Source of the DNA: a virus
Length of the DNA: 23,681 nucleotides
Reading direction: 5' to 3' (one strand)
IMG/VR virus record: IMGVR_UViG_3300024262_000246
Coordinates: 1 to 23,681 of that record
Both the position numbers and the translations under genes were made by a program. The notes below the pieces were generated by a model, which did not search any database, had not been told where the DNA came from, and saw only the letters and a list, made by a program, of their open reading frames with translations. Every line of letters begins with the position of its first letter. The first letter of the stretch is position 1. Below are positions 1 to 15,132 of this stretch, one piece after another.

Positions 1-77
1 CAAGAGTTACAAGAGTTACAAGAGTTACAAAAGTCACAATAGTTACAATAGTGACAAAAGTGACAAAAGTGACAAGA
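1..77. repeat. degenerate tandem 9-bp repeat
   Basis: About eight copies of a nine-base unit (AAGAGTTAC in the leftmost copies), drifting to AAAAGTGAC towards the right. On the minus strand it encodes the Cys triplet repeat. The unit may continue beyond the left edge. Confidence 0.85.
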
Positions 78-95
78 AGTATTATCAGAACTCAT
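1..95 (-). CDS. Cys-triplet-repeat small protein, partial at left edge
   Basis: Thirty-one residues are visible before the window ends. After a short MSSDNTS start, the chain repeats a three-residue unit, Cys then H/N/D then F/Y/S, eight times (CHF, CHF, CHY, CNY, CDF, CNS, CNS, CNS), and the next codon again begins TG. I chose this frame because its ATG overlaps the TGA of the upstream gene as ATGA, and GGAG lies at a good distance (about 8 nt) inside that gene. The nine-base repeat is also open in other frames, but those lack a start with an SD. No family is recognised. The spacing suggests metal binding or a disulfide-rich ladder, which is inference. It is the third gene of a minus-strand operon of very small genes. 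Confidence 0.65.
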   Translation of the reverse strand, partial: MSSDNTSCHFCHFCHYCNYCDFCNSCNSCNS

Positions 96-107
96 TGGGC
101 TTTCTCC
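85..107 (-). repeat. 23-bp direct repeat, copy 1 (gene-junction cassette)
   Basis: This is identical to 201-223. On the minus strand it holds GGAG, codons for EKAQ and stop, the overlapping ATGA, and the first codons MSS of the next gene. Confidence 0.9.
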
Positions 108-211
108 ACTAATTCATAATATTGTTTATAATAAGAAGTTAATTCATTTGGTTTAACTTCTTCAACTTCTCCTGTTTGTTTATTTCTTACTTTAATCTTT
201 TCAGAACTCAT
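92..211 (-). CDS. small hypothetical protein, 39 aa
   Basis: This is a short charged protein, starting MSSEKIKVRNKQTGEVEEVK and ending ...ELVEKAQ. Its middle is rich in Lys and Glu, followed by a Tyr-rich helix (SYYKQYYELVEKAQ). The ATG overlaps the upstream gene's TGA as ATGA, and its own TGA overlaps the next ATG in the same way, so translation is probably coupled through all three genes. The SD (GGAGAAAG) lies inside the upstream coding sequence. The start and the end of this gene both sit on copies of one 23-bp direct repeat. I recognise no domain or function. Confidence 0.7.
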   Translation of the reverse strand: MSSEKIKVRNKQTGEVEEVKPNELTSYYKQYYELVEKAQ

Positions 212-223
212 TGGGCTTTCTCC
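201..223 (-). repeat. 23-bp direct repeat, copy 2 (gene-junction cassette)
   Basis: This is identical to 85-107. It forms the junction between the 43-aa and 39-aa genes, carrying the downstream gene's SD, the upstream stop and the downstream start. Confidence 0.9.
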
Positions 224-339
224 TTTGCAATTCTTTCAATATAATCGGATAGTGTTTCATTCTTTCGTCCGTAGTAAGCACGTCTTAACTTATTCCACGA
301 CGTTAATCTAAACTTAACCATCTTGTATTGTTTTTCCAT
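208..339 (-). CDS. small basic protein, possible ribbon-helix-helix regulator, 43 aa
   Basis: The protein starts MEKQYKMVKFRLTSWNKL and ends ...SDYIERIAKEKAQ. A short alternating beta-like strand (YKMVKFRLT) followed by two predicted helices, the second with SDYIERIA, resembles MetJ/Arc-type ribbon-helix-helix proteins in size and order. That assignment is from pattern only. It is the first gene of a three-gene operon. A TATA-like box lies 26 nt upstream of the ATG with no SD, so the mRNA is probably leaderless. Two GTTTAC half-sites 11 bp apart sit between the box and the start, which would suit autoregulation by a dimeric DNA-binding protein. It ends in the same EKAQ as the next gene because both stops fall in a shared repeat. 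Confidence 0.7.
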   Translation of the reverse strand: MEKQYKMVKFRLTSWNKLRRAYYGRKNETLSDYIERIAKEKAQ

Positions 340-378: not shown

Positions 379-1194
379 TTATAATGAAACTCTTATAGTA
401 TGTTCTAATCCGCCAAGTTTTAATTTTGGGCTTCCAATTCTGGCTGGTTCCATGTTAGCCATATGTGCATAACTTCCCCAGTGTTTTAAATAACTACCTG
501 TAAGAATATAATGTTTTTGAGCCTCATCAATTTGTCTTGTGGATTTATTTATCTTATAGAAATTTTGAACGTGATGACTTAATTGATGGACATGACCCTG
601 TGCATAGATTTCTGAATCTATCATCTGGTTTGCCTTAATTATGTTAGCTATTTTTGTGTGTGGCATTCTAGCTCCAGAATTTCCATGTGTAGTATAAAGA
701 GTATAACTTTGTTTTCCAATTCTTAAAATATGTGCAGCTCCTGTTCCAAGATATTTAACATTTAATAAACTGCTTAAAATTTTAGATAAGTTTGCTCCAG
801 AATGATTGTATACTCTTGCTTCATGGTTTCCTATATGATTTCCTAATATTAATCCCTCATCTGCCAATGGTTTGTATAACTCAACAGCCTTTTCTAATTG
901 TTGTTGAACAATTTCACTTTGTTCAAATATACCTGCACCGATACTTGTCTTAGTAGCCGTTTCTAGCTCATCACCCATTAAAATAACATGAACTCCGTTC
1001 TCTAAACAATAGTCTAAATTTCTTCTATGTGTATCTTCATCATAATAATTACTTCCAATATGTTCATCACCCATAAGAATTATTTCTTTTTTATCCACAT
1101 CAAATTTATGTAAATTTACCTTTCGAGAATGAGGTGTTTTAGATAAAGTATTTTCCCAATCTTGTTTGTTTTGAACATTTTTTTTGATACTCAT
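379..1194 (-). CDS. calcineurin-like metallophosphoesterase
   Basis: The 271-aa protein shows the two-metal phosphoesterase signature in order: GDEH at 42-45, GDELE at 74-78, GNHE at 122-125, TTHG at 168-171 and GHVH at 200-203. These supply the Asp, His and Asn metal ligands of the family, which hydrolyses phosphomono- or diesters (nucleases, cyclic nucleotide and polynucleotide phosphatases). The substrate cannot be read from the sequence. The protein is cytoplasmic, with no signal peptide. It lies downstream of the primase in the replication half of the genome, which suggests nucleic acid processing or nucleotide signalling. It has its own TATA-like box 25 nt before the ATG and no SD, so the mRNA is probably leaderless. 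The second motif has Glu in its last position where Asp would also be possible. Confidence 0.88.
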   Translation of the reverse strand: MSIKKNVQNKQDWENTLSKTPHSRKVNLHKFDVDKKEIILMGDEHIGSNYYDEDTHRRNLDYCLENGVHVILMGDELETATKTSIGAGIFEQSEIVQQQLEKAVELYKPLADEGLILGNHIGNHEARVYNHSGANLSKILSSLLNVKYLGTGAAHILRIGKQSYTLYTTHGNSGARMPHTKIANIIKANQMIDSEIYAQGHVHQLSHHVQNFYKINKSTRQIDEAQKHYILTGSYLKHWGSYAHMANMEPARIGSPKLKLGGLEHTIRVSL

Positions 1195-1209: not shown

Positions 1210-1228
1210 AAGGTATTTTTAAAACCTT
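1210..1228 (-). promoter_or_regulatory. palindromic TATA promoter for the phosphoesterase gene
   Basis: The minus strand reads AAGGTTTTAAAAATACCTT, a near palindrome centred 25 nt from the ATG at 1194. It belongs to the GGTTTTAAAA family found before other genes here, and it overlaps the stop codon of the primase gene. Confidence 0.6.
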
Positions 1229-3437
1229 ATAATTCCAAATCCTCCTCTTTGGATAAATTGTTTAAATCATAATTTTTGGAAGGGTCTTTGAATTTTATGT
1301 AATTATAAACTCTGAATTTCTTATAGTTTAGAGTTTTGAAACTTTGCATGGCTCCAATTTTTTGTAAACAATCTTTCCGCTCTGATAACTTTTCTAATTG
1401 TAAATTATGTTCAATACAAAACTCAATGTATCCACGGTTTAAATCATTAATACTGATAAAACCGTTTAAACTAGTGTCAACTTCTACTTCAGATGTCAAA
1501 AACGCAGAGAAGCTGGAAGCCACGTCTGCCCATTTTGACCTTGTAAATTTATTATCTTCAGTTTCTGTAAACTTCTGATTCTTTTGTAACCTCTCTAACC
1601 CAGTAAGTGCCCAATTTAATAAACCTGACATCTCTTTGTCAGATGTAATTGTGTTCAAAATATTAACATCGATTTGTCTTTCGTGTTCTTCTTTAGGGTC
1701 ATTAACAAATTTATATGGAAAATCAACTCTTATCCATCTGTCATAATAACCTTCAGAATCATCATTAACGTTTGGTAATTCATTACATGCAAATAAGAAT
1801 TTAGCAAAGTTTATGAATTTGATAGGACTTAAAAATTTCCTCATACAAGTTGTTGAATCTCTACCTGTGAATTGTTTTAACTTTGAAGTGTCTTCAATTT
1901 TAGTTTTTGGAATATCCCCGCCCAAATTAACATATTTCCCAAATAACTTTTCAGTATCATATGAATTAGGTTTTGTAATTTCCTGTAGAGATAAACTTAA
2001 AGAATTTTGATAACCAACAAATCTTTCTATCAGTCCTAAAAGTTTTCCCTTACCGTTTCTTCCACTTCCTAAAAATATAAAAGTCTTTTCAATATTATAC
2101 TCACGGAAAAGTAAATATCCAAACAATTCCTGTATCAATTCCATATTCTCATTATCTTTAAGAATATCTTTAATAAATTTTAATGTAAGTTCGGGTTTAA
2201 TCAATGGGTCAAATATTAGTGGTAACTTATTGAAAAAAATATATTTATCTGAAAATGGTTCAATCGTTTTAGTTTTAATATCTAAAATACCATTAATTAA
2301 TGGGACCTTAGTTATATCTTCATTAATAAAAAAATCATCCTGATGTTTGTAAGTATCAGCTTCAATCTTAGCAACAACTTTATTAGAGAATGTCATGGAA
2401 TATAGTGGTCCCAGTATAGACCGTACAAATTGGTGTATGTAAGTTCGGGCATTTGGCACATATATTCCATTTCTATACACCCACATTTCCGTATCTTTGT
2501 CGTTTCGTATGGTTGTAATATTATTCATTTTAACAATTTCATCAGCTAATAATTCAGATGCTATATGTTTTGTTTTCTGTTCTGAATACATTTCTAATAT
2601 TTTAATCTTGAGATTATCATTTAATCCTGCCATCTTAGCTAATTCTCTTTTGGCTTCCTTAAATGTGCAAGTGTTCATCTTTTGGAATAATTGTATAACA
2701 TTTCCAGATTCTTCACAATGAAAACAGTGCCAAAGTGTATCTGAATGGCTAAAACATTTTCCGGACTCTGAAGAATGTCCCAACGGGCAATTTGTTAAGA
2801 TTCCGGGCGGTGTTTTGATATTTTGTGGTAATAAATCAACGGGTTTAATTTTCTCTTTGATTGCTACACATACTTCATCAAAATCTAATGTTGGAGAATC
2901 TTCCCTCTTTTTGGTTTTGGGGTTGATTATTTCTAAATTAGGCATAATGTTCTTTAAAATGTCAAATAGCTCTGTTTTGCCCACAGAAGCAATCTCACGA
3001 GGGTTTATGATTTCGTAACCTTTTCCATTAAGAAGTGTAGAAAGTGGACCCAGCACGTATGTATGGGCTCCCTGTAGGTCAAACACACGGGACTTGTTGT
3101 GGTCTGCACGAAATCCGACTGGTAATGTGTCTTCATCTGATTCTACATGAAAATAGAAATGGTATAAACCTTTACCCGCAGATTTAACTATAAAGGTTTC
3201 TCTAATCTTTTCATTTTGTAATAATTGTTCCTGAATTTTAGAATTATCACAATCAATTACCATTAAATTGTTATTACCACATAAAACTCCATAGGTTGGC
3301 TCATCTTTTGGAAAGTCTTCGTAAGAATAATTTGCTTTCGTCGGCCATGCCTTTTCAGCGGCCACTTTTTGTTTATCGACATCGTTATGTCTTAATCGTA
3401 TAAAACGCTCTTTTTTTAGTTGATTTGGGATAATCAT
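1227..3437 (-). CDS. prim-pol, CHC2 zinc finger and SF3 helicase fusion (replicative primase-helicase)
   Basis: The 736-aa protein has three parts. Residues about 15-160 are an archaeo-eukaryotic prim-pol domain, with VIDCD (D62, D64), a KGLYHFYF histidine segment (H93) and VFDLQG (D120). Residues about 195-270 are a CHC2-like zinc finger with C217, H221, C238 and C241. Residues about 290-680 are a D5/P4-type superfamily 3 helicase, with Walker A GSGRNGKGK at 457-465, Walker B-like VNLGGD ending at 508, the FACNELPN sensor motif around 552 and the YDRWIRVDF arginine segment at 565-573. It should unwind DNA and prime synthesis of the viral genome. It faces the repeat-rich divergent region. A TATA-like box lies 25 nt upstream. 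GGATGAT is present but 14 nt from the ATG, so leaderless initiation is favoured. Confidence 0.9.
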   Translation of the reverse strand: MIIPNQLKKERFIRLRHNDVDKQKVAAEKAWPTKANYSYEDFPKDEPTYGVLCGNNNLMVIDCDNSKIQEQLLQNEKIRETFIVKSAGKGLYHFYFHVESDEDTLPVGFRADHNKSRVFDLQGAHTYVLGPLSTLLNGKGYEIINPREIASVGKTELFDILKNIMPNLEIINPKTKKREDSPTLDFDEVCVAIKEKIKPVDLLPQNIKTPPGILTNCPLGHSSESGKCFSHSDTLWHCFHCEESGNVIQLFQKMNTCTFKEAKRELAKMAGLNDNLKIKILEMYSEQKTKHIASELLADEIVKMNNITTIRNDKDTEMWVYRNGIYVPNARTYIHQFVRSILGPLYSMTFSNKVVAKIEADTYKHQDDFFINEDITKVPLINGILDIKTKTIEPFSDKYIFFNKLPLIFDPLIKPELTLKFIKDILKDNENMELIQELFGYLLFREYNIEKTFIFLGSGRNGKGKLLGLIERFVGYQNSLSLSLQEITKPNSYDTEKLFGKYVNLGGDIPKTKIEDTSKLKQFTGRDSTTCMRKFLSPIKFINFAKFLFACNELPNVNDDSEGYYDRWIRVDFPYKFVNDPKEEHERQIDVNILNTITSDKEMSGLLNWALTGLERLQKNQKFTETEDNKFTRSKWADVASSFSAFLTSEVEVDTSLNGFISINDLNRGYIEFCIEHNLQLEKLSERKDCLQKIGAMQSFKTLNYKKFRVYNYIKFKDPSKNYDLNNLSKEEDLEL

Positions 3438-14910: not shown

Positions 14911-15132
14911 ATGACAAATGAAGAAATCGTAAAGGAAGAACCTAAAGTAGAAGAACCTGTAGTAGTAGAGGAACCTGTTAAAGAGGAAGAACCTGCTAAA
15001 GTAGAAGAACCTGTAGTAGAAGAACCTGTTAAAGAGGAAGAACCTGTAGTAGAGGAACCTGCTAAAGTAGAAGAACCTACAGTTGTAGTAACTCCATTCG
15101 ATGCAATTAAATTACATACACAATTATACTAA
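14911..15132 (+). CDS. acidic EEPV repeat protein, 73 aa
   Basis: After MTNEEIVK the protein is almost only Glu, Pro, Val and Lys in repeated units such as VEEPVVEEPVKEEEP and EEPAKVEEP, ending with a short normal segment TPFDAIKLHTQLY. The DNA shows matching tandem repeats. It is preceded by GGGAGG and ends in a TAATG overlap with the head-closure gene. The charge suggests an extended, disordered chain that may bind a basic partner (the 69-aa basic protein two genes upstream). Its role is unknown. Repeat number may vary between relatives. Confidence 0.75.
   Translation: MTNEEIVKEEPKVEEPVVVEEPVKEEEPAKVEEPVVEEPVKEEEPVVEEPAKVEEPTVVVTPFDAIKLHTQLY

Follow-up and report, generated by a model that had tools for sequence, protein, structure and literature searches.

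The window analyzed here is the whole 23,681-base virus record IMGVR_UViG_3300024262_000246. At its left edge, on the minus strand, lies the beginning of a gene for a protein with cysteine (Cys) at every third residue, referred to below as a Cys-tripeptide array. An earlier note on this DNA had described at least eight such repeats behind a coupled start with a Shine-Dalgarno sequence and had proposed that the array runs on past the left edge, and all of this was borne out. The gene and its start have the following features:

3..95, minus strand: visible part of the Cys-tripeptide gene, MSSDNTS-(CHF)2-CHY-CNY-CDF-(CNS)3, open past base 1.
1..74, minus strand: tandem array of 9–base pair (bp) units TGT-NAC-TNT; unit bases 4 and 8 alone vary, and the wobble is identical in all units.
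85..107, minus strand: ribosome-binding site (RBS) and start of the array gene, with GGAG at 104-107, 8 nucleotides upstream of the ATG at 93-95.
92..211, minus strand: coupled upstream small open reading frame (ORF) of 39 amino acids (aa), without significant family match.

The start of the array gene overlaps the stop (TGA) of the 39-aa ORF as ATGA at 92-95. The array ORF encodes MSSDNTS and eight complete Cys units, and the frame stays open to base 1, where a ninth Cys codon is cut off after its TG. A run of eight consecutive TGYNNNNNN units occurs once in the window, at 9-74 on the minus strand, and in 0 of 100 dinucleotide shuffles. Five different units are found among the eight, with a constant wobble.

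Arrays of the same kind are present in about 50 other uncultured viruses of IMG/VR. A scan of this database for six C-[NDH]-[SYF] units yielded 39 loci, and a looser nine-unit scan yielded 60. Removal of simple repeats left 44 distinct complete genes, plus incomplete ones. The DNA patterns fixed A at base 5 and T at base 7 and left C or T free at every wobble; the records are metagenomic and may be fragments. Relatives share one gene layout: a short N-terminus (L132, considered below, is the exception), mostly 7 to 41 units of the form C-[N/D/Y/H/K]-[S/Y/F], a cap, and a C-terminal part of two kinds. The type 1 cap, C.NL.MTEYN.FC...Q.K.YR.FNKEV, is followed by a domain of about 100 residues ending in ITGI. 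The type 2 cap reads CKNLVNGFMCINLK...KYWIFNKEVSKEEW, and in some type 2 members a CxxC knuckle forms the C-terminal end. Cys occupies 1038 of 1039 registers in 55 arrays.

The earlier note had cautioned that the repeat is open in more than one frame, and plus-strand frames are indeed also open across it. A DNA-level element (an iteron, recombination or packaging repeat) that is open by chance would explain these alternative frames as well as the 9-bp periodicity. However, in all 44 complete relatives the Cys frame has a start, runs through the array without interruption, and continues into a conserved cap and C-terminal part, and their wobble bases differ freely between viruses. The Cys frame therefore encodes protein in dozens of viruses, and the DNA-element explanation is largely refuted. 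The note had counted stop codons in the Cys frame of relatives as evidence against it; while the 44 complete genes are free of them, L180 (1189-1896) has an in-frame TAA within its Cys array, which continues in frame on both sides. This TAA may be a broken allele, a sequencing error or a recoded stop.

The window has eight C-x1-x2 units, compared to the minimum of six (x1 mostly N, D, Y, H or K; x2 S, Y or F) by which family members were recognized, and every unit is TGT-NAC-TNT. From the array composition, the uniform wobble and the start context, we infer that the window gene belongs to the Cys-tripeptide array family, its visible part ending before any C-terminus.

Variation in the arrays is distributed unevenly over the unit. 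Each array holds one wobble choice (all TGC-NAC-TNC in one virus, TGT-NAT-TNT in another), and variation falls on base 4 (N/D/Y) and base 8 (S/Y/F). In 56 arrays comprising 1005 units, diversity at the Cys wobble was 0.011 within and 0.493 between arrays; the corresponding values were 0.575 and 0.632 at base 4, and 0.470 and 0.576 at base 8. When NAY/TNY units alone were considered (865 units, 54 arrays), within-array diversity was 0.561 at base 4 and 0.458 at base 8, and 0.010, 0.024, and 0.020 at the three wobbles. Types beyond the first, each counted once per array, numbered 194 for residue pairs versus 11 for wobbles in these 54 arrays; expressed as alleles, 158 were non-synonymous at the two variable sites versus 9 at the three silent sites. 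Codon usage in the C-terminal parts of array ORFs is mixed; under that usage, NAY wobbles as uniform as these would arise with a chance of 1e-127. Between viruses, wobble divergence (0.38 to 0.43) is about that expected at the synonymous rate, as judged from two-fold silent sites of the C-terminal part (0.27 to 0.38). Therefore, wobbles are homogenized within arrays and not frozen. Those arrays that came from a protein search and not from the DNA pattern (L165, L175, L179, and L180) also have a uniform wobble.

Since silent sites are uniform and amino acid sites saturated within an array, units appear to be copied among themselves while differences at x1 and x2 are kept or favored. The earlier note had expected a Cys frame under selection to keep its Cys codons with synonymous changes between them. 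The first part of this expectation holds, as the near-invariant Cys demonstrates; the second does not, for synonymous change within arrays is nearly absent and two residues per unit are near saturation. Plain purifying selection on a uniform metal ladder does not describe the array, which evolves as a string of repeats that diversify.

The same numbers bear on a metal-binding or redox protein, either metallothionein-like or with stacked Zn or Fe-S sites, in which Cys alone matters and x1 and x2 drift freely. The near-invariance of Cys, a CxxC spacing typical of metal ligands, and the CxxC knuckle of some type 2 members fit this proposal. Free drift of x1 and x2 would, however, bring wobble drift with it, contrary to the allele counts above. 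Besides, x1 and x2 are confined to small sets, and Cys-less pentapeptide arrays, described below, hold the same place and vary likewise. We consider this explanation unlikely as a full account. A metal role for Cys is compatible with diversification and possibly survives as a partial truth, but it leaves the x1/x2 pattern unexplained. The disulfide ladder that the earlier note had named beside metal binding is likewise possible.

The window array might also have been a non-coding minisatellite or have arisen by misassembly at a contig end: simple 9-bp minisatellites of this pattern are common in cellular genomes, and the window array lies at a contig edge. The same DNA pattern was found at 70 loci in cellular genomes, all of which read as simple minisatellites without a cap. 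Among 71 cellular 9-bp minisatellite arrays, most consist of a single unit type, with no concentration of change at bases 4 and 8. In contrast, the window array combines several unit kinds and a constant wobble with a start codon and an RBS, which makes this origin very improbable. Short-read assembly favors heterogeneous arrays, but it has no reason to prefer non-synonymous over silent heterogeneity.

Residue x1 does not predict x2, and neither depends on neighboring residues. A longer superperiod or a fixed order of units was considered and rejected, as lag identities equal expectation and neighbors are independent. Such near-random unit order and x1-x2 pairing, together with a combinatorial look and variation at fixed positions, could suggest that targeted mutagenesis by a diversity-generating retroelement or another hypermutator writes the changes at bases 4 and 8. 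Yet a reverse transcriptase (RVT_1) was found in 0 of 34 virus records, which may be fragments; the A that adjoins variable base 4, at base 5, is rarely replaced, contrary to what adenine mutagenesis would produce; and the sequence around the variable bases is not the same in Cys arrays as in pentapeptide arrays. We therefore regard targeted mutagenesis as improbable.

The fold of the array had not been recognized in the earlier note. In line with this, Pfam and NCBIfam searches with complete relatives returned no significant model, and no sequence relatives of array proteins were found in PDB. There was no Pfam pentapeptide match for the Cys-array relatives, whose units have three residues and not five, and no metallothionein or ferredoxin homologue of the arrays in Pfam, NCBIfam or PDB sequences. 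The spacing itself is not new, however: it exists in an unnamed phage family, phrog_15341. The window gene does not follow that family over its whole length, having MSSDNTS in place of the GYYTDSNNNKWD N-terminus, and in the type 2 relative L012 the Cys part alone matches it, weakly (1.3e-5).

The C-terminal parts proved more informative. The type 1 C-terminal domain matches phrog_14105 (1.3e-14), and members of that family from Roseobacter phage CRP-811 (gp20) and MT835533 have NTG[ND]x pentapeptides where the Cys array would stand; the CRP-811 protein matches Pentapeptide_2 (PF01469) at 8e-19. A protein-based IMG/VR scan with the type 1 C-terminal domain also recovered NSG[NDYH][WRGL] and STG-type arrays, one of them behind DUF7666. 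In L187-L191, the same domain follows NTG/NSG pentapeptides, with phrog_14105 matches up to 1e-39. In two of these pentapeptide arrays (L188 and L190), two adjacent residues carry most of the variation, and x1 is again N, D or Y. A further relative, L147, joins a phrog_15341-like N-terminus and a Cys array to a third C-terminal domain (phrog_20532/7964), which in Ruminococcus phage phiRM10 gp34 follows YdcK beta-solenoid repeats (PF18836, 1.5e-41). Judged by these matches, two unrelated C-terminal domains can each be preceded by a Cys array or by a known solenoid. The Cys array thus appears interchangeable with solenoid arrays and is probably itself a narrow solenoid.

An indication of cellular location comes from L132, which encodes on the minus strand a 275-aa ORF with a LexA DNA-binding domain (PF01726, 2.4e-10), a 33-unit Cys array, and a type 1 C-terminal domain, all in frame. 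It is the only LexA fusion seen. Because the LexA domain is fused in frame, a cytoplasmic location is suggested and, for L132, DNA.

Taken together, the data suggest that window bases 1-95 are the start of a tailed-virus accessory protein whose string of Cys-x1-x2 units would lead into a cap and a C-terminal domain, as it does in complete relatives. The array would act as a scaffold whose structure is held by the invariant Cys, with the x1 and x2 side chains forming an exposed surface. Units would be copied among themselves by unequal recombination (concerted evolution), and diversifying selection would keep x1 and x2 changing, as in PRDM9 zinc-finger or transcription activator-like (TAL) effector arrays. 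By this analogy, x1 and x2 most likely make up the surface that faces a partner and on which diversifying selection acts. The likeliest role would be modular recognition, or mimicry as a decoy, of a partner that changes quickly in conflicts between virus and host or between viruses, in a location that is probably cytoplasmic and sometimes DNA-associated. We hold this reading as a whole, a diversifying modular recognition or decoy array protein under concerted evolution, to be somewhat better than an even bet.

Several observations weigh against it. The constancy of bases 5 (A) and 7 (T) arises partly from the choice of search pattern. The sole sister-contig comparison with array differences, that of L010 and L015, is small: their arrays differ by 2 changes in 279 bp, affecting base 4 once and base 8 once, versus about 5 changes in 7.6 kb, a count that leaves out a variable 12-bp repeat; a test of 2 array changes versus 4 gave p = 0.017. 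One relative, L180, has a stop inside its array. Pentapeptide arrays keep some wobble variation (base 6; in L188 and L190, one Ser wobble varies), and Campylobacter-phage Cys arrays (phrog_15341) show ordinary wobble variation. Since the latter have mixed wobbles, the homogenized-wobble mode is not universal to Cys-x-x repeats. For none of the arrays was a structure predicted with confidence: the AlphaFold model of a type 2 protein is continuous beta with a predicted confidence (pLDDT) of only about 60 and no significant PDB match, and type 1 arrays were modeled at pLDDT below 50. Foldseek searches with array models gave no significant match, and with the type 1 protein gave weak viral matches only, the second being a phage pentapeptide protein. 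The AlphaFold models are too weak for an array fold, such as the right-handed beta-helix of pentapeptide repeat proteins, to be named.

A more specific version of the diversifying-array reading is a string-like recognition code, in which each Cys-x1-x2 unit would be one of about nine surface types and viruses would retarget by shuffling and point-mutating units under diversifying selection. We offer this version as speculative and doubtful. If true, it would constitute an exceptionally short modular recognition repeat, with pentapeptide versions following the same two-residue rule.

The window belongs to a virus whose plus strand carries head and tail genes of the tailed-virus kind (portal, SU10-type capsid, tail tube, and terminase). 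The left part is a minus-strand cluster consisting of a primase/helicase, an exonuclease-like gene, two small ORFs, and the array ORF. In addition to the features listed above, this part contains:

201..223, minus strand: second copy of the 23-bp RBS/start segment, before the 39-aa ORF; an exact repeat.
208..339, minus strand: further coupled small ORF of 43 aa in the same cluster, without significant family match.
379..1194, minus strand: DNA repair exonuclease-like gene upstream of the small ORFs (phrog_7339, 2.6e-38).
1227..3437, minus strand: primase/helicase-like gene (Prim-Pol, CHC2 zinc ribbon, DUF5906).

Since the primase/helicase-like gene is on the same strand, the array gene can be placed in a replication-side cluster. 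The 23-bp segment, GGAGAAAGCCCAATGAGTTCTGA, is identical at 85-107 and 201-223 (minus strand) and precedes two successive coupled small genes. In relatives, the type 2 genes L012:2131-2535 (minus), L146:10628-11023 (plus), and L134:1001-1585 (plus) overlap, by 8 bases, with small upstream genes that look alike (ME[KR]I.I...); the 60 residues of the L012 copy had no PHROG match. The window also contains, at 14935-15083, tandem 15- to 51-bp repeats rich in GAAGAACCT, one reading frame of which is Glu-Glu-Pro. Another tandem repeat, of 12 bp (CGCTTTACCACA-like), lies at L010:3559-3700 and also in L015 and L029, apparently outside the main genes, and differs at many positions between sister contigs that are almost identical elsewhere.

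The left edge of the window is most likely an assembly break inside the repeat, because contigs of relatives also end in their arrays, G028 at both ends. G028 (L025/L137) is a 39-kb contig whose start and end both lie inside its own Cys array, which suggests a circular genome opened at the repeat. No Cys array is present in the available parts of the window's terminase relatives (L119-L122), and a search with the window primase returned no relatives; neither route extended the window gene. No contig matched a degenerate pattern spanning the junction of the 39-aa ORF and the array.

Homogenized silent sites combined with two diverging residues per unit are a hallmark of proteins that must keep changing their binding target, with PRDM9 and TAL effectors as the classic examples. 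This signature is seen here in uncultured tailed viruses on a three-residue Cys scaffold and partly on pentapeptide arrays with the same C-terminal domain. If binding follows x1 and x2, the arrays would be a very compact modular recognition system, pointing to an unrecognized arms race. Even if recognition fails, a viral protein family is defined, and phrog_14105 and phrog_15341, both of unknown function, gain a testable common theme. Among open-licence papers, nothing relevant was found on phage repeats with Cys at every third residue or on diversifying pentapeptide phage proteins.

Among known systems, metallothioneins share with the Cys arrays the very high Cys density and CxxC spacing, but no homology to them was found, and the Cys arrays are much longer, strictly periodic, and fused to unrelated C-terminal domains. 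The phrog_15341 proteins (Campylobacter phage CP21_166 and WX1_155) are similar in having long tailed-phage arrays with Cys at every third residue, and their N-terminus and array are carried by L147 (7e-22). They differ in an N-terminal motif of their own, far more varied x1 and x2, mixed TGT/TGC codons without homogenized wobble, and the lack of the cap and C-terminal domain of the Cys-tripeptide family. The phage proteins of phrog_14105/Pentapeptide_2 (PF01469), some with DUF7666, have the same C-terminal domain and two variable residues, the first being N, D, Y or H, but their units are five-residue NTG/NSG and not three-residue Cys, with more wobble variation. YdcK-type beta-solenoid proteins (PF18836), such as phiRM10 gp34, have the L147 C-terminal domain in common; their units are G-[ND]-A-x-V-x hexapeptides, and among Cys proteins only L147 has that C-terminus. 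In Prdm9, positive selection has been described at the residues that recognize DNA (PMC3890296), and the DNA specificity of TAL effectors is determined by the repeat-variable diresidue (PMC3597551). The folds and sequences of both are unrelated to those of the Cys arrays; what PRDM9 zinc-finger arrays and TAL-effector repeat-variable diresidues share with them is a mode of evolution in which near-identical tandem units change at a few specificity residues.
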